Shown one piece after another: positions 6,913 through 38,026 of a DNA stretch of 64,000 nucleotides. Below the pieces are notes generated by a model that saw only the letters and a list, made by a program, of their open reading frames with translations, ran no database searches and was not told where the DNA came from. Numbering within the stretch: the first letter of the stretch is position 1; each line of letters starts with the position of its first letter. The DNA is from Novosphingobium sp. 28-62-57 (GTDB taxonomy: Bacteria > Pseudomonadota > Alphaproteobacteria > Sphingomonadales > Sphingomonadaceae). The translations under genes and the position numbers were made by a program. The stretch spans positions 806,001 through 870,000 of the forward strand of contig NCGO01000001.1 in assembly GCA_002256985.1 (NCBI GenBank). The letters are read 5' to 3'.

Positions 6913-6927
6913 GTTCTTGTTATGTTC
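6913..6927 (+). promoter_or_regulatory. LexA/SOS box 1 (GTTC-TTGTTAT-GTTC)
   Basis: Exact match to the alphaproteobacterial LexA operator GTTC-N7-GTTC, in the divergent region between the small regulator (start 6887) and the S24 repressor (start 6988/6991). It is oriented towards the repressor. Confidence 0.8.
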
Positions 6928-6930
6928 TTA

Positions 6931-6972
6931 CTAGGATCTCAACCTAGAGTCTAGGATGACTTTTCCTAGGAT
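6931..6972 (+). promoter_or_regulatory. Triple CTAGGAT operator-like repeats upstream of the S24 repressor
   Basis: CTAGGAT occurs at 6931-6937, 6951-6957 and 6966-6972, with an inverted half-copy (CCTAG) at 6944-6948. The set lies between SOS box 1 and the repressor start, as expected for an autoregulatory operator. This is a candidate target of the S24 protein rather than of LexA. Confidence 0.55.
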
Positions 6973-6990
6973 TCGTGACAGGACAGCGTG

Positions 6991-7638
6991 ATGGACGAAG
7001 CACGACAGGCTCTCGACGAGCTCATCTCATCCCGAAAGGGCTGCACCTACTCCGGGATATCGCGGCTGCTCGGCCGCAACGTTTCCTATATCCAGCAGTA
7101 CATCCGCAAAGGCAGCCCGCGCTATCTGGACGAGGGCGATCGCAACATTCTCGCGCGGTTCTTTGGCGTGGAAGAGCGCGTACTGGGCGGCCCCCCTCAC
7201 CGCAGCGCGCCGGTCGTCGAACTGGTGCAGATCCCCGTTCTCGATGTCGAAGCCTCCGCCGGGCACGGCGCGTTCGCAGAAATGGAACGCAAGAGCGGTC
7301 AATTCGGCTTCAACGAAACCTGGCTTCGCAAGCTGACCCCGAGCAAGGCTTCAAGCCTGTCGATCATCCATGTTAATGGCGATTCGATGGAACCCACGCT
7401 CAACGACGGTGACGAAGTCATGGTCGACCTTGGCGATGGCCAGTCGCGGCTTCGCGATGGCATCTATGTGCTGCGGATGGACGATGCACTCAATGTTAAA
7501 CGCGTTGCCATCGAGCCTCAGGGACGGAAGATTTCGGTACTGAGCGACAACCCGGCCTATCCCAGCTGGCGCGGCCTTGAGAGACGAGCGATCAATATCG
7601 TCGGCCGAGTCCTTTGGTTCGGCCGCAAGCTTCAGTAG
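6991..7638 (+). CDS. S24-family self-cleaving transcriptional repressor (CI/LexA-like)
   Basis: About 216 aa (GTG at 6988 and ATG at 6991 are adjacent; the ATG is used here). The N-terminal HTH is near residues 20-42 (YSGISRLLGRNVSYIQQYIR). The C-terminal S24 peptidase domain has the cleavage-site Ala-Gly at about 91-92 (EASAGHG), nucleophile Ser133 (in GDSMEPT) and general-base Lys171 (LNVKR), numbered from the GTG. The 38-residue Ser-Lys spacing is that of LexA/CI/UmuD. It is expected to repress element genes and to cleave itself when RecA is activated. It sits downstream of an SOS box and CTAGGAT repeats, and three small genes follow in line. It is the likely master switch of the element, though its DNA targets are unknown. 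Confidence 0.88.
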   Translation: MDEARQALDELISSRKGCTYSGISRLLGRNVSYIQQYIRKGSPRYLDEGDRNILARFFGVEERVLGGPPHRSAPVVELVQIPVLDVEASAGHGAFAEMERKSGQFGFNETWLRKLTPSKASSLSIIHVNGDSMEPTLNDGDEVMVDLGDGQSRLRDGIYVLRMDDALNVKRVAIEPQGRKISVLSDNPAYPSWRGLERRAINIVGRVLWFGRKLQ

Positions 7639-7651
7639 GATTGGCACCCAC

Positions 7652-8077
7652 ATGTTCTTAGTTCTCGCAGCTGCGGTCGTCTCGGCGGGTCAGACTTTCA
7701 CCTGCACCCCCACCCATGTCTATGATGGCGATGGGCCGGTCTGGTGCGCCGAAGGGCCGCACCTGCGCATTGGCGGCATTGCGGCCCGCGAGATGGACGG
7801 CACTTGCCGCTCCAACCAGCCTTGCCCCCGTGCATCGGCGATTGAAGCGCGTGATGCCCTTGTTCGCCTGTTCGGCGGACCTCGCGGAACTATCTCCACC
7901 GGTCACGTCATTGTCGCGGGCCCCCGGCTCACCTGTCAGTCGGAAGGATCAGCTGGGGGCAGCAGGACGGCGGCATGGTGCCGTTTCCCCTCAGGCGCAG
8001 ATCTGTCCTGTGCCATGATCAAGACTGGCACGGCTCTGCGCTGGGACCGCTATTGGAAAGGTCCTGCCTGCCGGTGA
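7652..8077 (+). CDS. Exported thermonuclease-like (SNase-fold) protein
   Basis: 141 aa from the ATG at 7652, 14 bp after the repressor stop. Starting there gives a clean signal peptide (MFLVLAAAVVSAGQTFTC). YDGDGPVWCAEG and LRIGGIAARE correspond to the DGD and L.GI.APE motifs of staphylococcal-nuclease-like proteins, but the usual catalytic Arg/Glu set is only partly recognisable, so activity is uncertain. Six or more cysteines suggest disulfides in the periplasm. Proteins of this type are frequent in alphaproteobacterial plasmids beside S24 genes. It overlaps the next gene by GTGA. Confidence 0.78.
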   Translation: MFLVLAAAVVSAGQTFTCTPTHVYDGDGPVWCAEGPHLRIGGIAAREMDGTCRSNQPCPRASAIEARDALVRLFGGPRGTISTGHVIVAGPRLTCQSEGSAGGSRTAAWCRFPSGADLSCAMIKTGTALRWDRYWKGPACR

Positions 8078-8379
8078 GCAGCGATGAACACCTTACAGGC
8101 ACGCTCGAGCAGAACCGCAACGGATTGGTCCTGCGAACCGATGGCGGCGGAACGTGGGAGCTCGAAAGCACCCGCGCAGCGCGCGAACTCATCGGCTCCC
8201 GCGTAGAGATCATCGGGCAACGCTCGGGGTTCAACGGGCTGGTGTGCGATCAGATCTGGCCTGCCGGGCAGCCTCGCCCGCAAGCCGTCAAACTGCGCCT
8301 CGAATTCCTGCTCACCGCAGCCCTGGTCGCCTACGGCCTCTATGCGACCATAGGCGCCGCAATCAGCACACTGCGCTAA
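8074..8379 (+). CDS. DUF5818-type protein with C-terminal membrane segment
   Basis: 101 aa from the GTG at 8074, overlapping the preceding stop (GTGA). The domain at residues 6-58 (LTGTLEQNRNGLVLRTDGG, then ARELIGSRVEIIGQRSGFNGLVCDQIW) has an OB-like beta pattern and matches proteins annotated DUF5818. A hydrophobic helix lies at about 75-95 (FLLTAALVAYGLYATIGAAI). A second, soluble paralogue is encoded at 36497-36706 near the other end of the visible element. Function unknown. Confidence 0.75.
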   Translation: MSSDEHLTGTLEQNRNGLVLRTDGGGTWELESTRAARELIGSRVEIIGQRSGFNGLVCDQIWPAGQPRPQAVKLRLEFLLTAALVAYGLYATIGAAISTLR

Positions 8380-8576
8380 TGCTGAGCGACTGGGAACTCT
8401 GGGCCTGCGCCAACCAGGTCATCAAGGCGCAAGGCGACAAGGCTGCGCACTATGTCGCCGAACAGATCGGCGCGCTCGCGCTGGCCGGAGACGCGGAAGG
8501 CATCAAAATCTGGCAGGCCATTGCACACCGGATCACTGAACTCTCGGACCAAGTTGGGCCAACGACGCGGCAATGA
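8379..8576 (+). CDS. Small DUF6961-type protein
   Basis: 65 aa. The ATG shares its A with the TAA of the preceding gene (TAATG), so the two are coupled. MLSDWELWACANQVIKAQGD and the following LALAGDAEGIKIWQAIAHRI match a short helical family of sphingomonads that I recognise as DUF6961. Function unknown. It is the last gene of the run S24 - SNase-like - DUF5818 - DUF6961. Confidence 0.72.
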   Translation: MLSDWELWACANQVIKAQGDKAAHYVAEQIGALALAGDAEGIKIWQAIAHRITELSDQVGPTTRQ

Positions 8577-8628
8577 CGGCTCTCGCGGCTACTCGAAGTC
8601 TGAGGCAACACAGCCAAATATCGGCCCT

Positions 8629-8868
8629 TCAACCGATGGGCGAATGGTCGCCGGGGAACAGGCAAGACTGATGGCCACCTGACCGGTAGACCTCTCCTGA
8701 AATCTCCAAACCACGCATCCGCTCGACCAGATGCTGCGCGAGATCCACGCGTGCGGTGCGCTGTGCGCGTGGATCAGCTGCATTCAGGCCGGCCAGAGTC
8801 ACCTCCGGCGCCATAGCCAGCGCCACTTCCAGATGGGTCAGCAGAATATCATCAGCGATTCGGCTCAT
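8629..8868 (-). CDS. Small orphan protein behind an SOS box
   Basis: 79 aa from the ATG at 8868 (MSRIADDILLTHLEVALAMAP). An ATG at 8895 is in frame but lies inside the SOS box. No family is recognised; the first 60 residues look helical. It stands alone between convergent and tail-to-head neighbours. The SOS box ends 11 bp before the start codon and no Shine-Dalgarno is visible, so a leaderless message is possible. Confidence 0.6.
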   Translation of the reverse strand: MSRIADDILLTHLEVALAMAPEVTLAGLNAADPRAQRTARVDLAQHLVERMRGLEISGEVYRSGGHQSCLFPGDHSPIG

Positions 8869-8878
8869 GGCAACTTGA

Positions 8879-8893
8879 GAACAAATATAGAAC
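8879..8893 (-). promoter_or_regulatory. LexA/SOS box 2 (GTTC-TATATTT-GTTC on minus strand)
   Basis: Exact GTTC-N7-GTTC on the minus strand, 11 bp upstream of the 79-aa gene. A TTGACA (8903-8898) lies just upstream of the box. Confidence 0.78.
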
Positions 8894-8959
8894 ATATTGT
8901 CAATTGAGGAGCTGCCAGTCTGCCCGGACCTGCGGTGGGCATCAGCGTCGGCATCGGCG

Positions 8960-11896
8960 TCAGAGCCCGATCTCGAACGGCTTGATAAGCGAGCGATCGA
9001 GCTCGGGCGGTTCTCGCACAGGCATGGCTTCCTTGCTCGCGCTCCGCCCTTTCTCCTGCCCCGTGGCGGCCGCTTCCCTTAGCAGACCGACGGCTTCGAG
9101 TGCCGAGCGTTTCATGCCAGGATTGCGTTCGACCGCAGCCTCCAGCTTGGCGGCATTGTCGACATAGAGGGTCAGCCCATCGCGCAGCCGCGTGATCGTG
9201 ACGAGGAAGGTCTGCTGGTTCGAAAGGTTGCGCTCACGGCTGTCCATGACCGCGATGCCGCGGTCGGAAGTTAGCCCCTGCGCCATATGGGCGTTGAGTG
9301 CATAGGCCAGATCGAGGCGCTGAAGCATCGGGTCACCAGGTTGCAATTGATGCTCGGCTCCGAGCGACGTCTTCACGGTCACCTGCTTTGCATCGATCGC
9401 CACGATCCTGGCCTGGTCGGCATTGAGCAGTCCGCGCTTGTGATCGGTCTCGGTCCAGCGAATGCGGTCGCCCGCATAGAGTTCGAGCGGCTTCACATCG
9501 AACAAGCGCAGAGGATCCATCTCTCCTTGCGGACGCAATTGCCCTGGCCGGAATTCGAAGCGGCGGCCCCGCTCGTTTTCAAGGGTCACGCGCCCCCGCG
9601 CCAGGTCGGTTTCCGCGACGCGATATTGCCCTGCAAGCAGCCCCTGTCCGCGCTGGCGTCGCTCAACGCTGACAATCATGCCAGGCTTGTAGGTGCGCGC
9701 GTAGCGCAGTTCCTCGCGTGTGACGTTCACGCGGGACAGCGGGTTCACGCGTAACGACGCAGGGCCGAGTTCGCCGTTGGCCTTGAGACCCGTTTGCACC
9801 GCCTCGTTGACCTGGCTGCGCAGCGCCCGACCCGACGCATAGATCGAAGTGTTCTCGCGCTCGGCAGGCGAACGAGCAAGCCAATCGGCAGCCGCCGCGA
9901 TCGCAGCGCCGTTGGCAACTTCGATCACTTGCGGACCAAGATGCCGCAAGGCTGCCTCGATATGGCCGCTTTGGGCCGCAAATTGTGCATCGCGCAGGGC
10001 CTTGTCTCGCGCCCGTATATTCACGTTCATGATGGCGGTTTCGGCGCCGGCCTGCTGCATGACATCGAAGGGTTTGCCCGCGTCGACGGCGCCGAGCTGC
10101 TTCTTGTCACCGATGCTCGCAAAACGTCCCAATTCAAGGACATTGGCAAGCCGGACCAGCTTTTCCTTGTCGGCATTGCCGACCATCGAGGCCTCGTCGA
10201 GCAGCACGACCGTGCCGCGCAACGCCATCCGTGCCTCGGCAAGTTTGGCCTTGTTTGCGCCTTCCAGCAGCTCGCTGTGCTGGCGCAGGAAGCGCGACAC
10301 GGTCATCGAGGGAATGCCGGTATCGCGCTCCAGCATCTGGACGAGCGTGTTCTGGACCGCGAGACCAAGCACGGCCCTGCCCTGCTCCGCGAGGATGTCG
10401 GCGACCGGCTTCAGAACGGTGCTCTTGCCTGCGCCGGCAACGCCCTGGATGGCGACGATCCGGTTGTTGGAGGCGAGCAGCAGCTGGCCCGCAGCTTCCT
10501 GCCCAGGGTTCAGGGTCATGCCGTATTTGAGCTGCGAGAGCGCCTGGAGCCGGTCTCCGGCAACCTCAGCAGGCAAGATCGCTGGTGCGGCCCCGCGCCC
10601 GTTTTCCACCGCTGCAATGATGCGCTGTTCGAGACTGATGGCATCGCGGGTGGTCACCAGGTCGCGATCAGCGCCCTTGCCCTTCACCAGGTGTCCCTGT
10701 CGCAGCAATTGATCGACCCGCTGTTCGATCGCGGCCATCGCGGTCGGCAAGCCAAACCCGAGTGCCGTGCGATAAATCTCGGGGCGCGAAAAGGCGGCTT
10801 CGCGCTCACCCAAATGCCGGATAGCCGAAGCCGCGGCATGAATTGCGGCCACTTGCTCGGCGCTGCGATTGCCCATCGTGCGCGGGACAAGCGGATCACC
10901 CTGGCGGAGGCCAAGACGTTCGGCGAAGGCAGAGGCAAGCGCGCGTCCCTGATCGACCAGACCGCGCACCGTGCCGACAAATCCCGGCACATTGCCAAGG
11001 TCGTTTGCCGCGCGCCCGTTGGCTCTGGCGATGACGGCCTTTGGGTCGAACCCAAGCCGTGAGGCAGTTTCTTGCCATTGCTGGGTCAGAGCGCTGCGAT
11101 CTTCGATTTTGGCTTTATCGGCCCGCGTCATGAGCGTTGCCATGTCGGTGACGCGCGGCCCGCGATGATCCATCTGTGCGACCGCCTCGAGGATCTCGGC
11201 GCGCCGGGTGCTGAAGGCCTCGCGTATGAATTTCGGGACACCAACCACCTCGAAATTGCCGTGCTTGCCGACTTCGCCGACCTCGTAGCCGAGCTTCTCG
11301 ACGGACAGACGAAACTGCGCCATCGTGATCGCATTGAGAAGCGTGTTGTGCTCCCAGAGCTTGTCATTGCGCAGCGCGCGCCATTTGCCATCGGGCCCCT
11401 GGGTGACATTGGCGACGACAGCGTGGAAGTGGGCATTGGGTTCCTGGTTGCGGTTCGTATCGTGCTGAAAAAGCCCGATGACGAGGTTCCCTGTGGCCAG
11501 GATGCGCTCCTTGCCTTTCACCTCCATGCGGGTTTCGGCGAGGTTCTTCTCGGCCCAGACCAGGGTCTCCTTGACCGCAGCGGCATAGGCATCAAGGATA
11601 CGCTTGTCGCCGCCCACGAGCGCGAGGATCGACCAGCTCTTAGGCATCGAGAAAGTAAGATCGGTGCCGGCACGGTGCGCGCGGTTGTCGCTTCCGACCC
11701 TGCTGCCATCGGGGAGCAAACCCTTGAGCACCGCTTCGAACTGCTTGGCATCGACCCTGCCGACGAGCCCCAGCTTTTCGGCCCCCTTGCCCAGCCATTC
11801 GCCCGATCGTTCGGCATCGGCGCGGGTGTAGTAATTGTCTGCGGCAAAGTAGTTGGCGGCGCCGCCCGCGGTGCGGACATTGGCTACCGAAAGCAT
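8960..11896 (-). CDS. traI: TraI/TrwC-type MobF conjugative relaxase-helicase
   Basis: 978 aa from the ATG at 11896; the frame is open further upstream, but the protein starting MLSVANVRTA begins exactly like MobF relaxases. Tyr16 and Tyr22/Tyr23 (NYYTRADAERSGEW) are the candidate nicking residues. Asp79 and the His triad 145/156/158 (HDTNRNQEPNAHFH) form the metal site, at positions close to those of TrwC. The RecD-like helicase has Walker A GVAGAGKST at 485-493 and Walker B VVLLDEAS at about 563-570. The C terminus carries the late helicase motif (AHMAQGLTSDRGIAVM). It nicks oriT and unwinds the transferred strand. It starts 37 bp after the traD stop, in the order RHH-traD-traI found in R388 (trwABC). 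Confidence 0.96.
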   Translation of the reverse strand: MLSVANVRTAGGAANYFAADNYYTRADAERSGEWLGKGAEKLGLVGRVDAKQFEAVLKGLLPDGSRVGSDNRAHRAGTDLTFSMPKSWSILALVGGDKRILDAYAAAVKETLVWAEKNLAETRMEVKGKERILATGNLVIGLFQHDTNRNQEPNAHFHAVVANVTQGPDGKWRALRNDKLWEHNTLLNAITMAQFRLSVEKLGYEVGEVGKHGNFEVVGVPKFIREAFSTRRAEILEAVAQMDHRGPRVTDMATLMTRADKAKIEDRSALTQQWQETASRLGFDPKAVIARANGRAANDLGNVPGFVGTVRGLVDQGRALASAFAERLGLRQGDPLVPRTMGNRSAEQVAAIHAAASAIRHLGEREAAFSRPEIYRTALGFGLPTAMAAIEQRVDQLLRQGHLVKGKGADRDLVTTRDAISLEQRIIAAVENGRGAAPAILPAEVAGDRLQALSQLKYGMTLNPGQEAAGQLLLASNNRIVAIQGVAGAGKSTVLKPVADILAEQGRAVLGLAVQNTLVQMLERDTGIPSMTVSRFLRQHSELLEGANKAKLAEARMALRGTVVLLDEASMVGNADKEKLVRLANVLELGRFASIGDKKQLGAVDAGKPFDVMQQAGAETAIMNVNIRARDKALRDAQFAAQSGHIEAALRHLGPQVIEVANGAAIAAAADWLARSPAERENTSIYASGRALRSQVNEAVQTGLKANGELGPASLRVNPLSRVNVTREELRYARTYKPGMIVSVERRQRGQGLLAGQYRVAETDLARGRVTLENERGRRFEFRPGQLRPQGEMDPLRLFDVKPLELYAGDRIRWTETDHKRGLLNADQARIVAIDAKQVTVKTSLGAEHQLQPGDPMLQRLDLAYALNAHMAQGLTSDRGIAVMDSRERNLSNQQTFLVTITRLRDGLTLYVDNAAKLEAAVERNPGMKRSALEAVGLLREAAATGQEKGRSASKEAMPVREPPELDRSLIKPFEIGL

Positions 11897-11933
11897 GGTC
11901 CACCTCGCAAGGCATAGGCGCCGCCAACCATCG

Positions 11934-14303
11934 TCACATCTCCAGATCGCCATAGCCCGGCCCATCGTGAGAAGGCGTGTCCTGCTCGGGCACGCCATCC
12001 TCGATCATGAGCTTGCGAGCCTCCGGGGCGCTTTGCGGGGCGGCAGCTTTGCCGGGCTTCTGCACCTGGTTCATCTGATCCTTGGCGGCAGGTACATCGG
12101 CCCGGCGCGCTTCGTCTTTGCCCTTTGCGGGATCATCCTCAGAAGGCTTATCGCCGCCGCGCAGGACAGCGTCTTTGGGGAGAGAGACGGATCCACGTCC
12201 CCGACCCGGCGATGCTTTCGCGGCTTTCGCTTGCTTGCCCGCTGTTCCTGTTGCGGAGGGCTTGTCCGCTTCCTCGGGAAGGCTCTTGCCTGCAACGGGC
12301 TCTTGGCGTTCCGGCACGGCGGATTTGTCATCAGGCCCGCGCTGCGTGAGCGAAAGTTCTCCCTGCTTGGGCACGACCGGTTTGCCCGCTCCGTCATCAT
12401 TGGACGCAGGATGCGCGGAGGGATCATTGGCGGTCGAAGCTGCTGCTGCGCGTTCGGCATCTGCTTTGACCGGCGGCCGACGCAATGGTGGATCCTTGGC
12501 GCGGCCGATGAAGGTTTCCGCGACTTTTGGACGGGTGACCGGCTTCAGCTTGATCGGAGCCGCCGGGAAACCATCCGGGAATTTGAGGTAGCCTGACAGG
12601 CGCGACAGGTTCATCAACTGGTCTGGCAAGAGCAGTGGTTCGATGTGCTTGCGCGGTGTCAGGCTGACCGCATCGCGGGCATTGTTGTACCCGTAAGTGT
12701 AGCCTTCATCCATGTCGCGGACCTGGCGATGGCCGATGAAGTCCGAGCACCAGGTCGCGGTCTCGCGGTCTGCCGTGCCGAGGATCAGCTTGGTCCGGGC
12801 GAGCGATGACAGGGTCATCGCCATGTTGTCGCCGTAGACCTCTTTGAGCTTGGCATAGGCATGGATCCCGGTGACGATTGCGCCGCCAAAATTGCGGGCG
12901 GTCTGGAGCCCCTTTTCAAGCGCTGGCAGCCGGTGCAGCGCGCCGAGTTCGTCGATGAAGAACCAGAACCGCAGGTCGCGAGTTCGCGGCCTCGTCATGA
13001 GCGTGTTCATCGCTGTATCGAGCCACAGCGTGAGCAGCTGCGCGCAAACGCTCATGTCGACATAGCGCGCCGATATGAACACGGCAGAGCCTTTGCCTTG
13101 GCTCCCATCGTCGTCGTCTTCGATCCATTGGCGGACCGAAAACGGCTTGCCAGACGCTGGCAACAGCTTGAGCGCTTTGGCGTTGACGTTGAACACGGCG
13201 CGGATCGATTCCGCCATGCGTGCGGCTTCCGGCGCGGTGAGCGGATCGGCGATCGTGCCGCGCATCATGGCATGGACCTCCGACAGGTCGGCGGTCATCA
13301 GCTTCTTGGCCAGCGCTTCGTTGGTTCCGTTGCCATCGGCGATCAGCTTGAGGCAGAATTCCACGAACAGCGCGCGCGCTGCGATGACCCAGAACTGCGC
13401 CTCGCCGCCCCCGTCGTGGGGGACGAGCGCTTCAGCAGCCGCCCAGAATTCGCCTTCGCTCCGGCATTCGTCGAACAGGCTCCACCTTGGACAGCGCGCA
13501 TCGAGCGGGTTGAGGATGACGTCGCGGCTGCTGTCGTAGAAATGCTCGATGAAGGCGCCGGTAAGATCGAAGATAACGATGCGCTGCCGCCGCGCACGCG
13601 CCTCGGCAATCATGTCCGACATGGCGACTGTCTTGCCCATACCGGTCGTACCGATCAGCATCGCGTGGCTTTGCTCGAGCCGCCAAGGGTAGGAGACCGT
13701 GGCCAGATGCGAGGGTTTGTACGGAAACGCGCTGGCCAGCTCGCCGGGGGTGCAAAGCCGCCATTTCCAACCCAGGACAGCCGACAGTTCGCGGGACCGT
13801 TCCACCCGGTTGTGGGCATGGAGTTCATCGACCAGTTCGGGAAGCGTGACGAGCATCGCGCCGCGCTCATGCTTGCGCTCCTTGGAGCGGCGACCGAAGC
13901 GCGCCGCAAACCAGTAGAAGACCACGAAGGCAGGTACGAGCAACAGAGCCGAGCGCAGGAGAGCATTGCCGAGCAGGCCAAGCATATGGTCCCACGCCCG
14001 GACCACGGGCGGAAAGGTTTCAAGCAACCTGATGGGGAACTGGACTGTGCCGCCGAAGGCCGTTTTGAGCTCGACCTCCGTGGCTGGATCGAATTCCATA
14101 AAGGCATAGATCTGCCCATAGACACGCATCCAGACCAGATAGACTTCATGGTCGCTGAGCCCGGCCGACAGCGTCCACCAGTTTGTCCACGAAATCACCA
14201 GCAGTGCGACAATGAGCGGTCCCTTGAGACCGGCGGCAAACATGAAGCTGAAATGGCCAAGGAGCTGGCTGCCGCGGGTGAAATTGACGAGGTTACGCTT
14301 CAT
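11934..14303 (-). CDS. traD: TraD/TrwB-type conjugative coupling ATPase (VirD4 family)
   Basis: 789 aa from the ATG at 14303, chosen because it begins MKRNLVNFTRGSQLLGH and overlaps the upstream gene by 11 bp; longer in-frame starts lack support. Two hydrophobic regions (about 22-40 and 106-132) anchor it in the inner membrane. Walker A GTTGMGKT is at 218-225 and Walker B is FWFFIDELGALH, followed by the family segment LEKGLQTARNFGG. The last 180 residues are Lys/Ala/Pro-rich and probably disordered. It links the relaxosome to the transfer channel, whose genes are not in this window. Confidence 0.95.
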   Translation of the reverse strand: MKRNLVNFTRGSQLLGHFSFMFAAGLKGPLIVALLVISWTNWWTLSAGLSDHEVYLVWMRVYGQIYAFMEFDPATEVELKTAFGGTVQFPIRLLETFPPVVRAWDHMLGLLGNALLRSALLLVPAFVVFYWFAARFGRRSKERKHERGAMLVTLPELVDELHAHNRVERSRELSAVLGWKWRLCTPGELASAFPYKPSHLATVSYPWRLEQSHAMLIGTTGMGKTVAMSDMIAEARARRQRIVIFDLTGAFIEHFYDSSRDVILNPLDARCPRWSLFDECRSEGEFWAAAEALVPHDGGGEAQFWVIAARALFVEFCLKLIADGNGTNEALAKKLMTADLSEVHAMMRGTIADPLTAPEAARMAESIRAVFNVNAKALKLLPASGKPFSVRQWIEDDDDGSQGKGSAVFISARYVDMSVCAQLLTLWLDTAMNTLMTRPRTRDLRFWFFIDELGALHRLPALEKGLQTARNFGGAIVTGIHAYAKLKEVYGDNMAMTLSSLARTKLILGTADRETATWCSDFIGHRQVRDMDEGYTYGYNNARDAVSLTPRKHIEPLLLPDQLMNLSRLSGYLKFPDGFPAAPIKLKPVTRPKVAETFIGRAKDPPLRRPPVKADAERAAAASTANDPSAHPASNDDGAGKPVVPKQGELSLTQRGPDDKSAVPERQEPVAGKSLPEEADKPSATGTAGKQAKAAKASPGRGRGSVSLPKDAVLRGGDKPSEDDPAKGKDEARRADVPAAKDQMNQVQKPGKAAAPQSAPEARKLMIEDGVPEQDTPSHDGPGYGDLEM

Positions 14304-14625
14304 TGGAGCCTCCCTCGTCGGTGGCTGCAACCAGACCCAGTTCCTTGCACTTGCGGCCGTAGGCCTGATGGGCGCGTTCGCGCAGACGGTTGTCCGGATG
14401 CCCTGCCAGGAGGGCATCGACGCCGACCATGATAAAGACCGACTGGCGTGCCATTCGTTCGACTTTGGTGTCGACGCGCGAGACGAGATCATCGTCGTCG
14501 CAGGCGCGCATCAGCAGCGATCTGATCCATTCGCTGAGGCTGAGATCGCGGCGCAAGGCAGCTGCGCGCACACGCGCAGCAAGGTCATCAGAAACGTGAA
14601 CCTGTAGGGATTTTGGCCGTGTCAT
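14293..14625 (-). CDS. Ribbon-helix-helix relaxosome accessory protein (TrwA/TraY-like position)
   Basis: 110 aa from the ATG at 14625, preceded by AGGAG; an in-frame ATG at 14661 has no good Shine-Dalgarno. SLQVHVSDDLAARVRAAALRR followed by SLSEWIRSLLMRA is a classic beta-strand/two-helix RHH DNA-binding fold. The rest is helical. First gene of the transfer operon, directly before traD. In R388 the equivalent TrwA binds oriT and autoregulates. SOS box 3 lies 73 bp upstream, so the whole RHH-traD-traI operon is probably under LexA. Confidence 0.82.
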   Translation of the reverse strand: MTRPKSLQVHVSDDLAARVRAAALRRDLSLSEWIRSLLMRACDDDDLVSRVDTKVERMARQSVFIMVGVDALLAGHPDNRLRERAHQAYGRKCKELGLVAATDEGGSNEA

Positions 14626-14697
14626 TTCCACGGACTCCTTGATTGCGGAGCCTGGATTCACACTGCGAAAGGCGTGTATGGGCTAACCCAGATTTGA

Positions 14698-14712
14698 GAA
14701 CATGTCAAGAAC
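14698..14712 (-). promoter_or_regulatory. LexA/SOS box 3 upstream of the RHH-traD-traI operon (GTTC-TTGACAT-GTTC)
   Basis: Exact GTTC-N7-GTTC on the minus strand. The spacer contains a perfect -35 hexamer TTGACA, so a bound repressor would cover the promoter. The -10 is weak. It is the only evident promoter element for the transfer operon. Confidence 0.82.
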
Positions 14713-15371: not shown

Positions 15372-15378
15372 CACATGA

Positions 15379-19359: not shown

Positions 19360-20325
19360 TCAGGCGGCCAGCGCGTCGGCGGCGTCATCGCCGAGCGCAT
19401 CGCTGATGTCGTCGCCGTCGTCAGCGAGGGTGGTTCGGCCGCCAAGCTTCAGCAGCAGACTGGCCGCCTCCTCTGCACGCGCCGCTGCGGTCAGGATCGC
19501 GCGGTCGTCGTCCTTCAGGAGTTTGAGCCAGTGTTCGATGTAGCTGGCATGACTGTCGAGATGCGCCACCGGAAGGCCGAGTTCGGCTCCGAGCATCGCG
19601 CTCGACAGCTCGGCGATCAGCTCCTCGGCGGCATAGGCCGCGCTGCCGAAGCGGTTCTTGAGATCGCGGCCCAGACGGCTGTGGTGCCCGGTCCAGTGCG
19701 ACATCTCGTGTGCGAGCGTCGCGTAGTAGTGGTCGAAGCCCGTGAACAGGCTTGCCGGCGGCATCGTGATCCGGTCGATGCCGGGCTCGTAGTAGGCCTC
19801 TGAGCCAGCGTTGCGGAGGTTTGCCGGGATTGCCGCGAAGAACCGGTCGAGGTCGTCCTCGCGGCCCTCCGGCTCAACGAGCTCGAGCGATGCGACGGGA
19901 CGAAAGTAGGTCGGCAGGCCTTCCACCTGATCGGCATTGAAGACCGGGTAAGATTTGAGCACGCGGCGGGCTTCCTCACTGCGCTCGCCGGTATCCGGTG
20001 CCTCGACCTCCTTGGTGTAGCTCTTGTAGAAAATCGCGATCGTCGACTTCTCGCCCTTGCGGACTTGTCCGCCGAGTTCCTGCGCCTGGCGATAGGTCAT
20101 CCAGAACGGAGAGGCGTAACCGCACATGTCGGCGACCATCCAGAGCCAGAAGCAATTCATGCCACGATAGGGAATCCCGCAGGCCCGCAAGGGCCGCGAG
20201 ACCGGCACACCGCGCCATGGCTGGACCCAGGGCTTGGTGCCGGCTTCGAGCCGGGCGATGATTTCCTGGGTGATACGAGCGGCGGGCGAGATGGCACTGC
20301 GCTCGCGAGAACGGAACTTGGACAT
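19360..20325 (-). CDS. ardC: ArdC-type antirestriction protein/zincin-like metallopeptidase
   Basis: 321 aa. The N-terminal ssDNA-binding domain of the ArdC type (TQEIIARLEAGTKPWVQPWR, YRGMNCFWLW, WMTYRQAQELGGQVRKGEKS) is followed by a zincin domain with HEMSH (HExxH) near residue 210 and AEELIAELSSAMLGAELGL. Such proteins protect incoming single-stranded plasmid DNA. The leader has a terminator (20405-20450) followed by an SD-pairing hairpin. Confidence 0.93.
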   Translation of the reverse strand: MSKFRSRERSAISPAARITQEIIARLEAGTKPWVQPWRGVPVSRPLRACGIPYRGMNCFWLWMVADMCGYASPFWMTYRQAQELGGQVRKGEKSTIAIFYKSYTKEVEAPDTGERSEEARRVLKSYPVFNADQVEGLPTYFRPVASLELVEPEGREDDLDRFFAAIPANLRNAGSEAYYEPGIDRITMPPASLFTGFDHYYATLAHEMSHWTGHHSRLGRDLKNRFGSAAYAAEELIAELSSAMLGAELGLPVAHLDSHASYIEHWLKLLKDDDRAILTAAARAEEAASLLLKLGGRTTLADDGDDISDALGDDAADALAA

Positions 20326-26360: not shown

Positions 26361-27746
26361 TCAGGCCACTGCGGCGGCTTGCGGGCGCGGCGATTTGTCC
26401 AGAGCGCCAAGCTCACCGTCTGCGCGCGCGCGGCGGCCATAGACCAGCTCGAACAGCGGGCCGGCCATCATCGTGGTTACGATCGCCATCAGCACCAGCA
26501 TCGAGAACAGGGTCGGCCCGATGATCCCCTTCTGAAGGCCGATGTTGATGATGATCAGTTCCATCAGCCCGCGCGAGTTCATCAGCGCACCGATGCCGAG
26601 CGCGGTCCGGTTGTCTTCGCCCGAAAGGCGCGCCGCCGCCCAGCAAGCACCGAACTTCGCCAGAATCGAAATGGCCAGAATGGCGAGTGCGATAGCCAGC
26701 AAGGCGGGCGAGTTGACCATGTCGAGCCGGGTGTTGAGGCCCGAATAAGTGAAGAACATCGGCAGCAGAAGCACGACCGCCAGGGGTTCCGCCTTGCGCT
26801 GGATCTCGGTGACGAACAGCCCGCGTGGCATGCACACGCCAAGCAGGAAGCCGCCGAAAATCGCATGGATACCGACCGCGTCCATCACGAAGGCGGAGAT
26901 ACAGAACAGCGTGAGCGTGATGGCGAGCACGGTCGAGCTCATCTCGCCCTCGGCTTCCACCATACGGCCGAGCGGCGCGAGCAGACGGCGGCCAATCGTG
27001 AGCATGAACGCAGCATACAGCAGCGCCCCGCCGATCGCGAGGACCGCCACGCCGGGCCCGCCGCCGAAGGTGGCAAGCACCAGCGCGAGCACGCACCACG
27101 ATGCCGCATCGTCGAACGCGCCGGCGGTCAGCGAAAGTGTGCCGAGCGATGAATTGGCCAGACCGCGCTCGTTGATGATCCGCGCAAGCATCGGAAAGGC
27201 GGTGAGCGCGACGCAGGCACCGAAAAACAGCGTGGCATCCACCCGGCTGATCGCCGGTGCGAACAGCCCGTCGACCTGAAGCAGCCACGGCGTCGCGATG
27301 AAGGCGAGCAGGAACGGCACGATGATACCCGCCGCGGACACGGCGGCGGCATTTTTCGCTTTGGAACGGAAGTGATCGAGCCGCAGCGTCAACCCGACGA
27401 TGAACATGTAAAGACCCACGCCAAGCTGCGCGCCAGCATAAAGCACATTGCGAGTTTCCTTGGGAAACAGCGCAAGCTGGAAATCAGGGAAGAGCAGCCC
27501 GAGGAGCGACGGGCCGAGCACGACACCGGCGATCATCTCGCCCACCACCTGCGGTTGGCCGAGCAGCTTTTGCCCCAGCCAGCCAATCACGCGGCAAGCG
27601 ACGAGGATGATCGCCAGCTGCAGAAAGAAATGTACACTGAAATCGCCAGGCGTGTAGCTGTTGGCGGTCTGCACCGCCGGCCCGTGCGGCGACAGGATGC
27701 CGGCCAGCGTTGTGATTACGCTGTCAATGATCGTCTGGTTCGGCAT
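26361..27746 (-). CDS. CPA2-family cation:proton antiporter
   Basis: 461 aa from the ATG at 27746, preceded by GGAGGGGG; longer starts are unsupported. About twelve hydrophobic helices. Landmarks are GEMIAGVVLGPSLLG near residue 70, FDDAASWCVLAL (the ion-binding Asp pair region) and FLLGVCMPRG. It resembles KefB/NapA-type Na+(K+)/H+ antiporters but has no C-terminal TrkA/RCK domain. It sits upstream of the porin in one operon, so inner- and outer-membrane transport may be coupled cargo of the element. Confidence 0.88.
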   Translation of the reverse strand: MPNQTIIDSVITTLAGILSPHGPAVQTANSYTPGDFSVHFFLQLAIILVACRVIGWLGQKLLGQPQVVGEMIAGVVLGPSLLGLLFPDFQLALFPKETRNVLYAGAQLGVGLYMFIVGLTLRLDHFRSKAKNAAAVSAAGIIVPFLLAFIATPWLLQVDGLFAPAISRVDATLFFGACVALTAFPMLARIINERGLANSSLGTLSLTAGAFDDAASWCVLALVLATFGGGPGVAVLAIGGALLYAAFMLTIGRRLLAPLGRMVEAEGEMSSTVLAITLTLFCISAFVMDAVGIHAIFGGFLLGVCMPRGLFVTEIQRKAEPLAVVLLLPMFFTYSGLNTRLDMVNSPALLAIALAILAISILAKFGACWAAARLSGEDNRTALGIGALMNSRGLMELIIINIGLQKGIIGPTLFSMLVLMAIVTTMMAGPLFELVYGRRARADGELGALDKSPRPQAAAVA

Positions 27747-27937
27747 GTTTTCCCCCTCCAACCGCACTTGGCACGGCGCTTTGGAAAACCCGATCACGCG
27801 GCAGATCGACGCTGCAAACCCCAAAAGCACATCCGCAGCGGCGTTGGCTCACGATTTCGGGCGGCCAGGCCAAATTTGTTGCGCGCAAACCACGATGTAG
27901 TAACGTGCCTACAAACGTGTTGCCGATGGGAGGCGTG

Positions 27938-33400: not shown

Positions 33401-34722
33401 GCATGGGCACTGACAGCGTAGACGAGGGTCTCGATCTGCGCGGCGGAGAGGAGCCCGCGCGCTACGACCCCGCCGGGCAGCTTTGGCACTATGTTGGGCA
33501 CTGGCGCGGTGATCGAGCCCATCGCAACCGATTCCACCAGCGGTGTGGGGTGATCAGCAGCGCCTGCGATCTCAATGCGGCTCGGCCGGTAGGGCAAATA
33601 GTGACCGACTTGCTCCGGCGACAGGGCTGGCACGTCGAGCGCTTCGTAGACAACCGATGCGGCCGATTCACGTGCGGCAGTTGGCCTTGCCACCACTGGT
33701 GACGGACGAAGCGCAGGTCGAAGCAGCGGAAGAGCCTTGAGGGAACGGAGCGGCGTTAGCACTGCAGTTGGAGCAGTGGTCCGAGCAGGCACCGTGTCGA
33801 CCAGCGCACAGACATCTGCAAAGTCCGCGGTCCGGGCGATGACCGGTTCGCTGGTCGCGTCGACTTTGTCGAGCACCAGCAACCGCGTGGTGATCGAGGT
33901 GCCCTGGGCCAAGAACCAGCGCTCGATAGCGACGTCGAGGCGCAGCGCCGCTGGGCTGGTCATGCGGCGCAAAGACCGGCTCATGTCGAACCACTCCGGC
34001 ATGATTGCGGTGAGCCGCCCGCCGGGAGCGAGGCGGTTCCATGCCGAACGCAAATGCCGCGCGGCTGTACGGCCATCGTGACCGCGCTCGGCGCCCCACG
34101 AATAAGGCGGGTTCATCAGGACAACGGCGGGCCGAGGCGCTGCGCGCAAAAGGTCGTCGATCAGCTCTGCATCGTGGCCCGTAATGCTGGCCACTGGGAA
34201 TAAGTGACCGAGGCAATCACGGCGCAGCGCGGAGATCTCGTTGATAGCAAGCCTTGCGCCCGCCTTGTCCGCCCATACCGCCAGCATGCCGGTTCCGGCG
34301 GAAGGCTCAAGCACGAGATCGCCGCGTGCGATGCAACAGGCCCGTGCCGCTAGCCAGGCAAGTCGCGGCGGGGTCGCGAACTGCTGGAGCTCGATCTGCT
34401 CTTCGCTGCGCGTGGTCTGACGCGGCACCAATGATTCTAGGTGGCCGAAGAATTCTGCGGCAGTAAGCGGGCTGGCGTCCAACCCGATTGCCGGCTGATC
34501 CTGCAACCAGATGACTTGCGCAATTTCGAGCGCGGCGTGGGCATCGCGCACAGACCAACGGCCAGTAGCATCGCTGCCACCGAACTGCGCGGATAGCTCA
34601 GCATTGAGGACCGGACGCGTAATGGCCTCGGATCGGCTAAACCGGGCTGCAACGGCATGCGCGACTGACATGACAAGGGGTTGCTCACCAAACGGCAAGG
34701 CGAGAACGGGGAAAGTGGACAT
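30490..34722 (-). CDS. Giant fusion: SAM-dependent methyltransferase + strawberry-notch DEAD/DEAH helicase
   Basis: 1410 aa. Methyltransferase domain: LEPSAGTGMLAVWA (motif I) at about 139-151 and NPPY at 204-207, as in N6-adenine/N4-cytosine methylases. Strawberry-notch ATPase: unusual Walker A GDGTGAGKGRQ at 473-483, DEAH at 580-583, YASATGASD motif III, and a C-terminal helicase half with VFSDAGGTGRSYHADL and IQGLGRTNRTNQ (Arg-finger motif VI). Such fusions are conserved on sphingomonad plasmids and ICEs and are thought to protect or process element DNA; the target is unknown. The leader has GUCAGGAGG plus a short bulged hairpin (34738-34760). It lies 73 bp before the Toprim gene, on the same strand. 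Confidence 0.93.
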   Translation of the reverse strand: MSTFPVLALPFGEQPLVMSVAHAVAARFSRSEAITRPVLNAELSAQFGGSDATGRWSVRDAHAALEIAQVIWLQDQPAIGLDASPLTAAEFFGHLESLVPRQTTRSEEQIELQQFATPPRLAWLAARACCIARGDLVLEPSAGTGMLAVWADKAGARLAINEISALRRDCLGHLFPVASITGHDAELIDDLLRAAPRPAVVLMNPPYSWGAERGHDGRTAARHLRSAWNRLAPGGRLTAIMPEWFDMSRSLRRMTSPAALRLDVAIERWFLAQGTSITTRLLVLDKVDATSEPVIARTADFADVCALVDTVPARTTAPTAVLTPLRSLKALPLLRPALRPSPVVARPTAARESAASVVYEALDVPALSPEQVGHYLPYRPSRIEIAGAADHPTPLVESVAMGSITAPVPNIVPKLPGGVVARGLLSAAQIETLVYAVSAHARDLPGLFAPEDKGCTLKASVEGKAYRMGYFLGDGTGAGKGRQVASVILDRWVQGGRRHIWISKNEALLEDARRDWSALGGLPIDIQPLATWKLGSQVTMQEGILFVTYPTLRSGRADATRLDQILAWAGEDFDGVIVFDEAHAMANAAGGEGSRGKTKGSEQGVAGVRLQNLLPRARVLYASATGASDVNNLAYATRLGLWGPETAFANREEFVTDIRAGGIAAMELVARDLKALGLYTARALSFAGVEYEILEHHLSADQIAVYDAYADAWAIIHANLREALEATRIVDCETGGTLNSGAKSAALSIFEGTKQRFFAQLLLSMKLPSLLPAIDAALQEGHAVVVQLVSTAEAMLDRRLADLSDEEREALEIDLSPREYVVDYLMKSFPVRLMAVFTDENGNPRSEPMSDEYGAPVLCQSALAARERMVEQLCALPPIATALDAIIERFGTDKVAEVTGRTKRLVVGSDGRQKLQSRTQRANLAETQAFMDGDKRILVFSDAGGTGRSYHADLATRNQARRVHFLLEPGWRADAAIQGLGRTNRTNQASAPLFRPVTTDVRGERRFISTIARRLDSLGALTRGQRQTGGQNLFDPADNLESIYAKEALNRWFGLLFMGKLEAVGLARFQDLTGLRIESADGGMVDDLPTIQRWLNRILALPIGLQNAIFDEFLGLVEARIDAARASGTLDLGLETIAVESFEILSDTWLRTDSVSGATTHLLELEIARALKPLTLDRVGQLEGTSGSRRRLMCNSRSGRAALLVPARSLLADDGSRITRHELVRPLKRGYLSDDQLAESSWEPVDEPAFRDAWQSEVDEALSSLKRERLHLATGLLLPVWDKLPTDYVRVSRISARDGRSLLGREVPLHAIGQISNALGLEAAPEIAPESLIAAVLASGRAMPIRAREALMLKRSLVNGAQRLELTGWSASRLDWYKAQGCFTDIIRFQTRLFVPLEGAAEVVASIERH

Positions 34723-34795
34723 GCGAAACCTCCTGACGAGACCCGCGCCATGCAGGGCTCAAAAGGCACCAAGCCACCTCTCCTCTCCGCGACGC

Positions 34796-35692
34796 TCAAA
34801 TCGCCGCGCGCAATCGCTGCATAAGCACGTCGTTCCAGTCCTCGTCGGCACGCTCAGGGCGCTGGGTCACGATCCGCCGATCCTTACGGGCATAGGCTTC
34901 GCGAGCGCGTTCTTCTGCGAGCAGACCGCCAGCATCGTTGTCGACGAACAGAATGAGTTCGCGCACCGATTCCGGTATCGTGACCAGTCCGAAACGCTCG
35001 TTGCCAAGAGTCGCCCAGCAGGGAGTTCCGAAGAGTTGCATTGCTGAAAGCGCGCTTTCGGTGCCTTCAGCGAGGCCGAGGCGCCCCGTTCGCGGGAACG
35101 CCAGGCGCACCGCGCCAGAACCGAGACTGCCCAGCGCGCGCTTGGGCTGTTCGAACGTCGCGAGACCGTTGCCATCGGGATTGAGGAAGGTGCGGTGCAG
35201 CGCCAGGATTCCGACATCATTGCGCACCGCCGCCACCATCGCCGGAAGGAACTGCACGGAGCCCTTGGGGCCAAGCGGCATACGCGGATGAAAGCGCAGC
35301 TCGGTCGATGCGACCGTGACACCTCTTGCCAAGAGGTATCGAGCGGCCGAGCTGCCTGCGAGGGGTGAGGCCTCGAGCCATAGCCTGAGTGCGTTGCGGT
35401 CGGCGATTTCGTGACGCGGCTTGGTTGCGATCGGGCCCCCTACCCCGTCGAACAGGTCCGAGATCCGCACCCCAAGCTTGGCCATGCCTCGTAAGACGGC
35501 CTCATTGGTGCAGCCGGCAAAGCAATGAACCAAGATCGCGCGCTTACCGAGTGTGATGCTGAGCGAGGGGGTACGATCAGCGTGGGCAGGGCAGCAACAC
35601 ATACCGCGCGAGCGGGACCATTTCCCGCTCAGTGCCTCGACGATCATGCGAGCGCGGGCTTCGAGCGTTTTGCGACTGTGAACTTGGGACAT
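34796..35692 (-). CDS. CHC2 zinc-finger/Toprim primase-like protein
   Basis: 298 aa from the ATG at 35692; an open extension to 35752 lacks support. N-terminal zinc ribbon CCCPAHADRTPSLSIT...HCFAGC as in DnaG-type primases. The Toprim domain has LGLAEGTESALSAM (Glu) and LILFVDNDAGG (DxD). It matches the DUF7146/Toprim proteins of alphaproteobacterial plasmids. It may prime complementary-strand synthesis after transfer. It is upstream of the giant methyltransferase/helicase and divergent from the lytic transglycosylase, sharing a region with SOS box 4. Confidence 0.9.
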   Translation of the reverse strand: MSQVHSRKTLEARARMIVEALSGKWSRSRGMCCCPAHADRTPSLSITLGKRAILVHCFAGCTNEAVLRGMAKLGVRISDLFDGVGGPIATKPRHEIADRNALRLWLEASPLAGSSAARYLLARGVTVASTELRFHPRMPLGPKGSVQFLPAMVAAVRNDVGILALHRTFLNPDGNGLATFEQPKRALGSLGSGAVRLAFPRTGRLGLAEGTESALSAMQLFGTPCWATLGNERFGLVTIPESVRELILFVDNDAGGLLAEERAREAYARKDRRIVTQRPERADEDWNDVLMQRLRAAI

Positions 35693-35772
35693 GGGACATC
35701 TCCATTCTGGCATGCCCCCACCCGCGCAGCCTCCGCTCTGCGCTGCCATCAATGCGTTTTCCTACACACCTT

Positions 35773-35787
35773 GTTCTTTATATGTTC
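35773..35787 (+). promoter_or_regulatory. LexA/SOS box 4 upstream of the lytic transglycosylase (GTTC-TTTATAT-GTTC)
   Basis: Exact GTTC-N7-GTTC, 32 bp before the ATG at 35820 and 80 bp before the divergent Toprim gene. It is oriented towards the transglycosylase. An AT-rich -10-like element overlaps the box. Confidence 0.8.
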
Positions 35788-35819
35788 CACACCGATTCGG
35801 CTATAGAAGGAATCGAGCC

Positions 35820-36482
35820 ATGAGATTGAGATGGGCAACGATTGCTGCGGCGGTCACTGGACTAGCGGTTATCGCCCCCGCTCAAGCGCGGGAGGAAGCG
35901 ATCACAGGAGTTGCCACTGCACCTGGTATTGGACCTCAGGGCTTCCGTGTGGCCGAGGCGTCAAACGGTTTCCAATTGGTCGAGCATGGTATCTGGAAAC
36001 GTCCCAAAGATACTACCTTGCCCGCCGCCGCTATCGTCGAAGCTGGCCGGATCCACCTTCCCTATCGCTATGCGAAATCTGAAAGCAGGAGGCCGTCAGG
36101 TTTTCGCAGGGCAAGCTACCTCCCCCATGTCTACGCTGCGGAGACGCAATATGCGTTACCGGCGGGCCTTCTCGACGCGTTGGTATGGACAGAGTCCCGG
36201 TATAATCCATTGGCGATTAGCAAGGCTGGTGCTGCTGGGTTGGGACAGCTAATGCCCGGAACCGCTCGCGATCTTGGCATTTCAAACCGCTTCGATCCAA
36301 TGCCCAACATCTTCGGCGCAGCGCGGTATCTGCGCCAAATGCTCGACAAGTTCGGGGTAGTGCATCTGGCTATCGCTGCCTACAATGCTGGTCCTGGCGC
36401 GGTGGAACGAGCTGGTGGTATCCCGCACAATGGCGAGACGCCGGCCTATGTGCGCAGTGTGCTGCGCCATTGGCGTTTCTGA
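35820..36482 (+). CDS. Lytic transglycosylase (SLT family), transfer-associated
   Basis: 220 aa from the ATG at 35820 (GAAGG upstream). Signal peptide MRLRWATIAAAVTGLAVIAPAQA. SLT domain at about 105-215: catalytic Glu125 in WTESRYNP, AGAAGLGQLMPGTARDLGI, AAYNAGPGAV. It acts in the periplasm to open peptidoglycan, as VirB1/TrbN-type enzymes do for conjugation. It is the only cell-envelope transfer function seen here and has its own SOS box. Confidence 0.92.
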   Translation: MRLRWATIAAAVTGLAVIAPAQAREEAITGVATAPGIGPQGFRVAEASNGFQLVEHGIWKRPKDTTLPAAAIVEAGRIHLPYRYAKSESRRPSGFRRASYLPHVYAAETQYALPAGLLDALVWTESRYNPLAISKAGAAGLGQLMPGTARDLGISNRFDPMPNIFGAARYLRQMLDKFGVVHLAIAAYNAGPGAVERAGGIPHNGETPAYVRSVLRHWRF

Positions 36483-36496
36483 AAAGGGGGTTGGTT

Positions 36497-36706
36497 GTGA
36501 GTTCCAGTCGAATACGCGTGTCTGGAATGTTAAGCCGCGGCAGGCGCGGGATGATCTTGACCACAAAAGCCGACGAAGTCTGGATCGTCGAGAGCCAGGA
36601 AGTTGCCGACGATCTCATTGGCTCAAGGGTGATCATTGAAGGTGTCGTTGCAGGGATGGATCGGTTACGTGCTGACTGGATTGGCGCGGACAGTCATTCT
36701 TCCTGA
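36497..36706 (+). CDS. Second DUF5818-type protein, soluble paralogue
   Basis: 69 aa from the GTG at 36497 (AAAAGGGGG upstream; an ATG at 36470 overlaps the previous gene). RIRVSGMLSRGRRGMILTTK followed by ADDLIGSRVIIEGVVAGMDR aligns along its length with the 8074 product (LTGTLEQNRNGLVLRT...ARELIGSRVEIIG), without the membrane helix. It follows the transglycosylase directly and overlaps the convergent integrase by 13 bp. Confidence 0.72.
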   Translation: MSSSRIRVSGMLSRGRRGMILTTKADEVWIVESQEVADDLIGSRVIIEGVVAGMDRLRADWIGADSHSS

Positions 36707-37968
36707 TTTTTCTGCGGCGGATATCTCGCGACGAGGTGAAGAACCTCCCTGCCCCATAGCGCGAGCGCCTCGCGCTTCTCATTGGTGTACTGATGCCGAT
36801 GATAAACCCCGGCGACACCAGCCATTGCTGACCCCGACTGATGATTGAGGACAGCTTCCGAGACGACCAATGGTATTCCGAGCCTTTGCAGGCCGGTTGC
36901 CACCGTCCGGCGAATATCATGCATGGTGAAATGCCCAGCTTCATAGCCGAGCTTCTCGTCCACGCTTGCCCGTATCCGCTTCCAAGCCTTGGACAGGCCA
37001 CTGACACTGTTCGTGTTGGTTACCTTGGATGCCAATAGAATTTGGGATTGTTTGTGAGCGTCGTCCGGAGTGATCCCCGAGGCCGCAAAAATCTCGGTGA
37101 CGACCGCAAGGGTCTGCGCTGACAGCGGCACCACATTCGCCTTTCCGTTTTTCGCTCTGTCCCCCGGCACCGTCCAAACCTTCGCTTTGAAGTCGAACTC
37201 ATCGCAAGTGGCGTCGAGCACCTCTCCCCTGCGTTGGGCTGTAAGAACAAGCATTTGCACAAGATGACCAAACGGAAAGCCGTCTTCGGCAGCAGCCTGC
37301 CACAATGCCGCGAGTTCACGATCGCTAAGTACGCGGTCGCGAGGCTCGCTCCGCTTCGGGCGCCAAGCATCCCTACACGGGTTTGCAGGCAAATGCTCGA
37401 GCCTGGTGAGCGCCCATGTGTAGAACGTAGAGAGATGGCGAAATACGATGCGCGCCATGGTCAGGGTCTCTTTGCCGCCCTCGAAGGCCACCTTCTCGAC
37501 GAAGCGGCTCACGTCGCTTCGAGTGATAGCATCGGCGAGGCGGTCGCCCAACTCAGGCTCAATGTACTTCCGGAAGACTCGGTCAAACTCTCGGGCGCTG
37601 CGCTTCTTCCCTTCGATCTGCTGGATGAGGTAGATTTCATAGAGCTCAGCAACAGTTCCAACCCCCTTGGTCCCCTTCCGCTTCGCCCCTTCTTTCCTTG
37701 CGATACTCTTGCCTTGCTCCACGTCGACAAGGAGATCGCGCGCCTTCCTTCGAGCATTGGCCAAAGTGAAACTCGGGCCATGGCGTCCAATCGTGATATT
37801 CAACCATTTCCCCTGCACCCGCTTGCGCAAAATGTATGTCTTGATACCACTCGCGCCGATGCGCAGGCGAAGGCCGTTGACGATGCCGTCCACGAGCTCA
37901 ATCTGTCCTGTCGCTGGGGCCTTCAGCCCTGCGATCCGCGCATCCGTCAATCCCACTTTGTTCGCCAT
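36694..37968 (-). CDS. int: P4-type tyrosine integrase of the element
   Basis: 424 aa. N-terminal DUF4102-like arm-binding domain (LTDARIAGLKAP, LRLRIGASGIKTYILR, KARDLLVDVEQGKS), core-binding domain and catalytic domain with Arg in LTAQRRGEVL, HDIRR (HxxR), LNHQSG (second His) and the nucleophile region VAGVYHRHQY. It faces away from the tRNA-Lys fragment that starts 131 bp from its start codon, the usual layout for elements that integrate in tRNA 3' ends. Its promoter is covered by SOS box 5. Confidence 0.96.
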   Translation of the reverse strand: MANKVGLTDARIAGLKAPATGQIELVDGIVNGLRLRIGASGIKTYILRKRVQGKWLNITIGRHGPSFTLANARRKARDLLVDVEQGKSIARKEGAKRKGTKGVGTVAELYEIYLIQQIEGKKRSAREFDRVFRKYIEPELGDRLADAITRSDVSRFVEKVAFEGGKETLTMARIVFRHLSTFYTWALTRLEHLPANPCRDAWRPKRSEPRDRVLSDRELAALWQAAAEDGFPFGHLVQMLVLTAQRRGEVLDATCDEFDFKAKVWTVPGDRAKNGKANVVPLSAQTLAVVTEIFAASGITPDDAHKQSQILLASKVTNTNSVSGLSKAWKRIRASVDEKLGYEAGHFTMHDIRRTVATGLQRLGIPLVVSEAVLNHQSGSAMAGVAGVYHRHQYTNEKREALALWGREVLHLVARYPPQKNQEE

Positions 37969-37993
37969 ATGTGCCTGCTACCTTAGGTAGCTT

Positions 37994-38026
37994 TTTGTAC
38001 TGGATACTCGCGAACATTTCAAGAAC
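37994..38026 (-). promoter_or_regulatory. int promoter with LexA/SOS box 5 (GTTC-TTGAAAT-GTTC)
   Basis: On the minus strand the box is 38026-38012. Its spacer provides the -35 TTGAAA (38022-38017), and 17 bp on is TACAAA (37999-37994), a good -10, 25 bp before the int ATG. A repressor on this box would block RNA polymerase directly. Confidence 0.85.

Follow-up and report, generated by a model that had tools for sequence, protein, structure and literature searches.

What holds an integrated conjugative element silent, and what releases it, when the sites that mark its promoters resemble those of its host's own DNA-damage response? The question is raised by a 64,000-nucleotide stretch of the Novosphingobium sp. 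28-62-57 genome (contig NCGO01000001.1, positions 806,001 to 870,000; the window), which carries the right 38 kb of an integrative conjugative element (ICE) of ~98 kb (C1:746229-844198). We propose that host LexA directly represses all of the transfer modules of this element, with an element-encoded CI-like regulator of the S24 family as a second, narrower switch, and on the sequence evidence we put the probability of this reading at about 0.8. The first-pass annotation of the window had listed five exact GTTC-N7-GTTC sites, and the coordinates and spacers of all five were reproduced (Table 1). The window holds six exact matches, the sixth (38841-38855) lying inside an open reading frame (ORF; 38248-41175) outside the element, and among the matches listed for C1, which extend beyond the element, the element's remaining 60 kb contain no exact box. 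One hundred dinucleotide shuffles of the window gave a mean of 1.98 matches (standard deviation 1.27, maximum 5), and none of the 100 reached six.

The same box stands upstream of host recA and of host lexA (above the cut-off of TIGR00498), and also before host genes that we named by eye from their translated starts as uvrA, uvrD, imuA, radA and parE, plus a radical-SAM gene. The box at the lytic transglycosylase gene of the element (GTTCTTTATATGTTC) is identical to a host box at C1:523120, and that of the host radical-SAM gene is likewise identical. GTTCN7GTTC is the LexA box of Caulobacter (PMC9578287), and anoxia in Sphingopyxis granuli TFA induces lexA, recA, radA and two imuAB-dnaE2 operons together (PMC6472365), which fits one shared regulon. 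The boxes of the element had further been described as intergenic and as all pointing toward their genes. Because several host boxes (uvrA, imuA and the radical-SAM gene) are oppositely oriented, and two of the five, those at 35773 and 6913, each lie between divergent ORFs, orientation carries little weight and was rejected as evidence.

The sites are clearly beyond chance because they are conserved in relatives of the element. Sixty loci with relatives of the relaxase were fetched, of which 50 had a hit to the ribbon-helix-helix (RHH) protein that heads the relaxase operon and at least 130 nt upstream of it, and the box was found 5' of the RHH gene in all 50; with two shorter upstream regions added the count was 51/52, the miss (L063) lying near a contig end with a different upstream sequence. 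From the same 60 loci, the remainder being without the gene or its upstream region, the box was present 5' of S24 in 52/52, with 22 different spacers, and 5' of a conserved 79-amino-acid (79-aa) gene in 31/31. It also preceded the divergent primase and transglycosylase genes in 30/30 fetched primase loci (own copy included, from matches in 133 of 397 genomes). Integrase relatives were drawn from 397 genomes and all 27 that were fetched are reported: when the set was split post hoc at 55% identity, the box was found before 13/13 close integrases (59% identity or more; the set counts the own copy and two loci of a single genome) and before 1/14 distant ones (<55%). Its distance to the start codon was 10-11 bp at the 79-aa gene, 43-44 bp at int, 69-74 bp at RHH, 50-63 bp at S24 and 75-98 bp at the primase. 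GTTC repeats at spacings of 5, 6, 8 and 9, and the inverted form, occurred in 0-3 loci per set. Across the flanking columns the frequency of the majority base averaged 0.625-0.906, depending on the set; the frequency of 1.000 at the half-sites is by construction, the rows being aligned on the box, and the informative figure is the number of loci with a box. As host recA and lexA share the box and the family retains it throughout, the earlier proposal that LexA directly controls int, the relaxase operon, the transglycosylase and S24 is the best-supported reading of these sites, and the transglycosylase box may equally act on the divergent primase.

Two further boxed promoter regions, which the first-pass annotation did not contain, came from relatives of the pilin gene of the type IV secretion operon (30 fetched loci, own included, from matches in 80 of 394 genomes). 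A box preceded the pilin gene in 27/30 of these loci, and a second preceded a divergent helix-turn-helix (HTH) gene in 29/30, with 21 different spacers by hand count. In the element itself the HTH gene is divergent from the pilin gene and is followed by an AlpA-family gene (L177 4716-5508), which could be the excisionase. In one genome (G036) the boxes of int, primase, relaxase operon, 79-aa gene, S24 and HTH gene all lie within 65 kb.

The element-encoded S24 protein appears to have a target of its own, which is likewise new to this analysis. A90-G91, S132 and K170 were invariant in 18/18 S24 sequences, and we take them to be the functional cleavage and catalytic residues known from the family. 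The best structural model (mean predicted local distance difference test score, pLDDT, of 78.5; the other four models 53-70) has a five-helix N-terminal domain, and its best fold matches were a lambda/186 hybrid repressor, 186 CI and LexA. TCCTA was present in 52/52 promoters of element S24 genes and a TCCTA/TAGGA dyad in 45/52, and TCCTA-N6-TAGGA in 27/30 promoters of relatives of a chromosomal S24 paralogue (30 fetched loci, own included, from matches in 106 of 119 genomes). The element S24 thus seems to use a separate TCCTA/TAGGA operator, to which its binding is predicted from the motif, and with such an operator it is probably not the explanation of the GTTC boxes. The 71-aa ORF divergent from S24 resembles, by eye, the ORF divergent from the chromosomal paralogue. 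One GTTC match, 278 bp upstream of where the chromosomal S24 gene starts, was rejected as a promoter box and left uncounted: by our reading it lies inside a small ORF.

Several observations weigh against the proposed control by LexA, some of them in favour of another explanation. The relatives share ancestry and their counts are not independent. The window's own element is alone among the 30 pilin loci in being without exact boxes at both the pilin and the HTH gene: its far site is one mismatch off (ATTC-N7-GTTC, at the same position) and its near site appears, by eye, degraded; the secretion operon of this copy may have lost part of the coupling. A backward control, CTTG-N7-CTTG, was found in 14/50 RHH upstream regions, where inspection by eye shows the two patterns overlapping (CTTGACATGTTCTTG). 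The relaxase spacer is near-fixed (TTGACAT in 48/50) and contains TTGACA, so the box probably overlies a -35 element and its conservation may in part be that of a promoter; the 79-aa gene instead has a TTGAC upstream of its box. The bare pattern was not enriched in the host genome (116 matches against 139 for the pattern read backward), which makes the match count by itself modest evidence, and genome-wide counting of exact matches was rejected as weak; a subset with A/T-rich (W-W-T) spacer ends, GTTCNNNNWWTGTTC, was enriched (20 against 1, with 4 of the 20 within the element), as was GTTCNNNNNWTGTTC in the genomes of six relatives picked for carrying related elements (142 against 11, both strands summed).

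One explanation for the data is that LexA does bind the boxes but that S24 is the main gate, with LexA only modulating; we regard this as possible though clearly the lesser prospect, and since it overlaps the favoured reading the odds of the two are not exclusive. The promoters of the primase/transglycosylase pair and of the pilin hold both motifs, and bare TCCTA lies within 130 nt of 7/13 int starts, as well as upstream of the relaxase operon in 7/52 loci and of the 79-aa gene in 2/31. The longer TTTCCTA, a motif selected after inspection of the pilin and primase promoters, was present at the pilin in 30/30 and the primase in 28/30, but at the relaxase operon in 0/52, the 79-aa gene in 0/31 and int in 0/13, which gives no support to the idea that S24 controls excision and DNA processing via TTTCCTA. 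GTTC boxes mark every module, whereas the S24-type motif marks S24, the primase/transglycosylase and the pilin.

Another possibility is that S24, rather than LexA, binds the GTTC boxes and is the master repressor, the role that SetR has in SXT. S24 and traI are no more than 10 kb apart in most loci, and S24 has a GTTC box in its own promoter throughout (52/52) and is CI-like both by fold and by its invariant Ala-Gly, Ser and Lys, and a GTTC box also preceded the chromosomal S24 relatives in 5/30 (within 110 bp) or 6/30 (within 120 bp) loci. However, the motif common to the promoters of element and chromosomal S24 genes is a different one, the predicted five-helix N-terminal domain is CI-like and unlike the winged helix that forms the DNA-binding domain of LexA, and GTTC-N7-GTTC is already the box of host recA and lexA; S24 binding to the GTTC boxes is on these grounds unlikely. 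That the boxes lack any LexA function, and have persisted by descent as promoter elements or chance matches, would suit the unenriched bare pattern, the TTGACA in the relaxase box and the relatedness of the loci, but is very improbable given that the box persists while its spacers vary (22 at S24; 21, counted by hand, at the HTH gene), that TTGAC falls outside it at the 79-aa gene and that other GTTC spacings are confined to 0-3 loci per set.

Returning to control by LexA, the sites and their conservation, the host boxes, the ends and gene content of the element and the existence of two distinct motifs are direct observations. From them we infer that LexA and S24 bind, with what sign S24 acts, and that cleavage, induction, excision and transfer take place, and the following order of events is proposed. 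LexA would occupy GTTC-N7-GTTC in the promoter regions of int, transglycosylase/primase, RHH-traD-traI, the 79-aa gene and S24, and in relatives also at those of the pilin/type IV secretion operon and the divergent HTH gene. On DNA damage, RecA filaments would trigger LexA cleavage and all modules would be derepressed together, and S24, as a second RecA-sensitive regulator, would be cleaved alongside LexA. Through TCCTA/TAGGA, S24 would act on its own gene and probably also on the primase/transglycosylase and secretion promoters, and LexA control of S24 would help to re-establish silence after damage. As a new host already holds LexA, the silence of the element could be immediate on arrival. 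In its broadest form, towards which we lean with some reserve, the proposal is that this ICE family has ceded its master switch to the host: LexA would directly gate as many as seven promoter regions, those of int, the transglycosylase/primase pair, the relaxase operon, the 79-aa gene, S24, the HTH gene (with AlpA) and the pilin/secretion operon, S24 would be a second RecA sensor with narrower targets, and the SOS response and transfer would form one regulon.

The best-known SOS-inducible ICEs relay the damage signal through one element-encoded repressor. ICEBs1 is an integrated element induced by DNA damage, as the present one is predicted to be, but its control rests with an element-encoded repressor and protease (ImmR/ImmA) and not with LexA-type boxes. 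CTX phage is under LexA control, and to our knowledge LexA governs one or a few promoters in this phage and in the mobile genes named below, none of them promoters of transfer operons. ICEBs1 has been described as influencing the host SOS response (PMC11841131), and direct use of host LexA has been reported for integron integrases, GIL01 phage, colicins and rumAB of R391 (PMC9578287, PMC11841131, PMC4344509). In contrast to these systems and to CTX, boxes stand here at int, at the relaxase operon and at the primase/transglycosylase pair, and relatives have them at the secretion operon too. SXT/R391 elements are SOS-inducible and carry a CI-like repressor, SetR, with a RecA-responsive cleavage site (PMC4542580, PMC4344509). 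They resemble the present element in linking conjugation to the SOS response and in having a CI-like S24 regulator, recognized here from its sequence and modelled fold, and differ in that, as those sources describe it, the damage signal in SXT passes through a single element repressor to the activator SetCD, whereas here a LexA-type box stands at each module; no SetCD-like gene was found among the element proteins scanned, which cover part of its ORFs. The traD-traI operons of sphingomonad MobF plasmids have gene order in common with that of the element, and in the five examined (of 97 records) the relaxase is 44-46% identical and four have an RHH or small gene ahead of traD, but an exact box lies upstream in 0/5. 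In two of these plasmid stretches (L180 13356, L182 12890) a box starts 52 bp before umuD, and the relaxase operon a few kb away is boxless. The S. granuli TFA genome paper mentions putative ICEs and in its available part gives no analysis of their control (PMC4741004), and a literature search that left subscription journals mostly outside its coverage and held most titles only at listing level found no ICE in which every transfer module carries a LexA box.

The whole transfer programme of a family that spans sphingomonad genera appears to lie inside the host LexA regulon. If this is true, DNA damage would release the entire programme at once, with no single dedicated repressor. Three questions then become open to experiment: whether differences in LexA affinity suffice to set the order of excision, DNA processing and pore building, how the element stays silent on reaching a new host in which LexA is present from the outset, and whether gene flow among soil and water sphingomonads is driven by stress and by pollutants that damage DNA.

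Table 1. Boxes, candidate operators and genes of the element within the window (window coordinates; strand left as a point where a feature has none).
Feature	Position	Strand	Remarks
71-aa ORF divergent from S24	6672..6887	-	putative; no Pfam match
LexA-type box GTTCTTGTTATGTTC	6913..6927	+	between S24 (+) and 71-aa ORF (-)
Candidate S24 operators, CTAGG/CCTAG half-sites alternating in orientation	6931..6969	.	S24 promoter
S24-family CI-like regulator	6988..7638	+	Ala-Gly, Ser, Lys of self-cleaving repressors
Conserved 79-aa protein	8629..8868	-	
LexA-type box GTTCTATATTTGTTC	8879..8893	-	10 bp 5' of 79-aa gene; 3' of a TTGAC
MobF relaxase/helicase TraI	8960..11998	-	start codon may be internal
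Coupling protein TraD	11934..14492	-	start codon may be internal
RHH protein, first gene of traD-traI operon	14293..14625	-	Pfam match just below cut-off; start 14625 set from relatives (full ORF 14293-14661)
LexA-type box GTTCTTGACATGTTC	14698..14712	-	before RHH-traD-traI; spacer holds TTGACA, the sigma-70 -35 consensus
Toprim primase-like protein	34796..35692	-	heads leftward gene run
Candidate S24 half-site TTTTCCTA	35757..35764	+	adjoins box at 35773
LexA-type box GTTCTTTATATGTTC	35773..35787	+	between transglycosylase (+) and primase (-)
Lytic transglycosylase (SLT domain)	35820..36482	+	
Tyrosine integrase	36694..37968	-	adjoins right end
Dyad GCTACCTAAGGTAGC	37977..37991	-	immediately before int; kept in 13/13 close integrase loci, own copy included
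LexA-type box GTTCTTGAAATGTTC	38012..38026	-	5' of int
attR, 99-bp direct repeat with tRNA-Lys(CTT) 3' end	38100..38198	.	partner copy C1:746229-746327

The element is bounded by the 99-bp direct repeats, which include the 3' part of tRNA-Lys(CTT), and the left copy carries the intact tRNA gene. The element is larger than the interval 6913-38026 given in the first-pass annotation, with its type IV secretion genes left of the window; they are of the F type (TraK, TrbI, TraC, TraU, TraN, TraF, TraH and TraG) and, with the integrase, relaxase, coupling protein and flanking repeats, give it the make-up of an ICE, for which excision and transfer are predicted. The leftward run at 15-35 kb was considered as the secretion operon and rejected, Pfam giving an ArdC-like protein, ParB domains, an antiporter, a SLOG protein and a helicase instead. 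The 79-aa protein is predicted to form three helices (mean pLDDT 55-75 across five models), with no fold match (best E 2.2) and a match to DUF6771 that was sub-threshold only. The dyad before int could serve a regulator as its site or, in the RNA, form a hairpin that covers the ribosome site; among the loci compared (L119-L130, L143), L130 alters both of its arms (GTTACC...GGTAAC). An Rfam scan of the window gave nothing at the gathering threshold.

Cargo of the element includes a His-Xaa-Ser radical SAM maturase pair, HxsB/HxsC (window 3296-5967), Ter/StiP-type stress genes in its left part (TerD, ATP-grasp, PRTase and StiP; L176 8436-18967), an RND efflux pump (L178 10711-13800), a Na/H exchanger (window 26361-27830) and the ArdC-like antirestriction protein (window 19360-20325). 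Outside the element, at window 54179-56001, there are several inverted repeats of 26-39 nt with a common GTTCGTGTCGAGCGAAGTCGAGA-like sequence.

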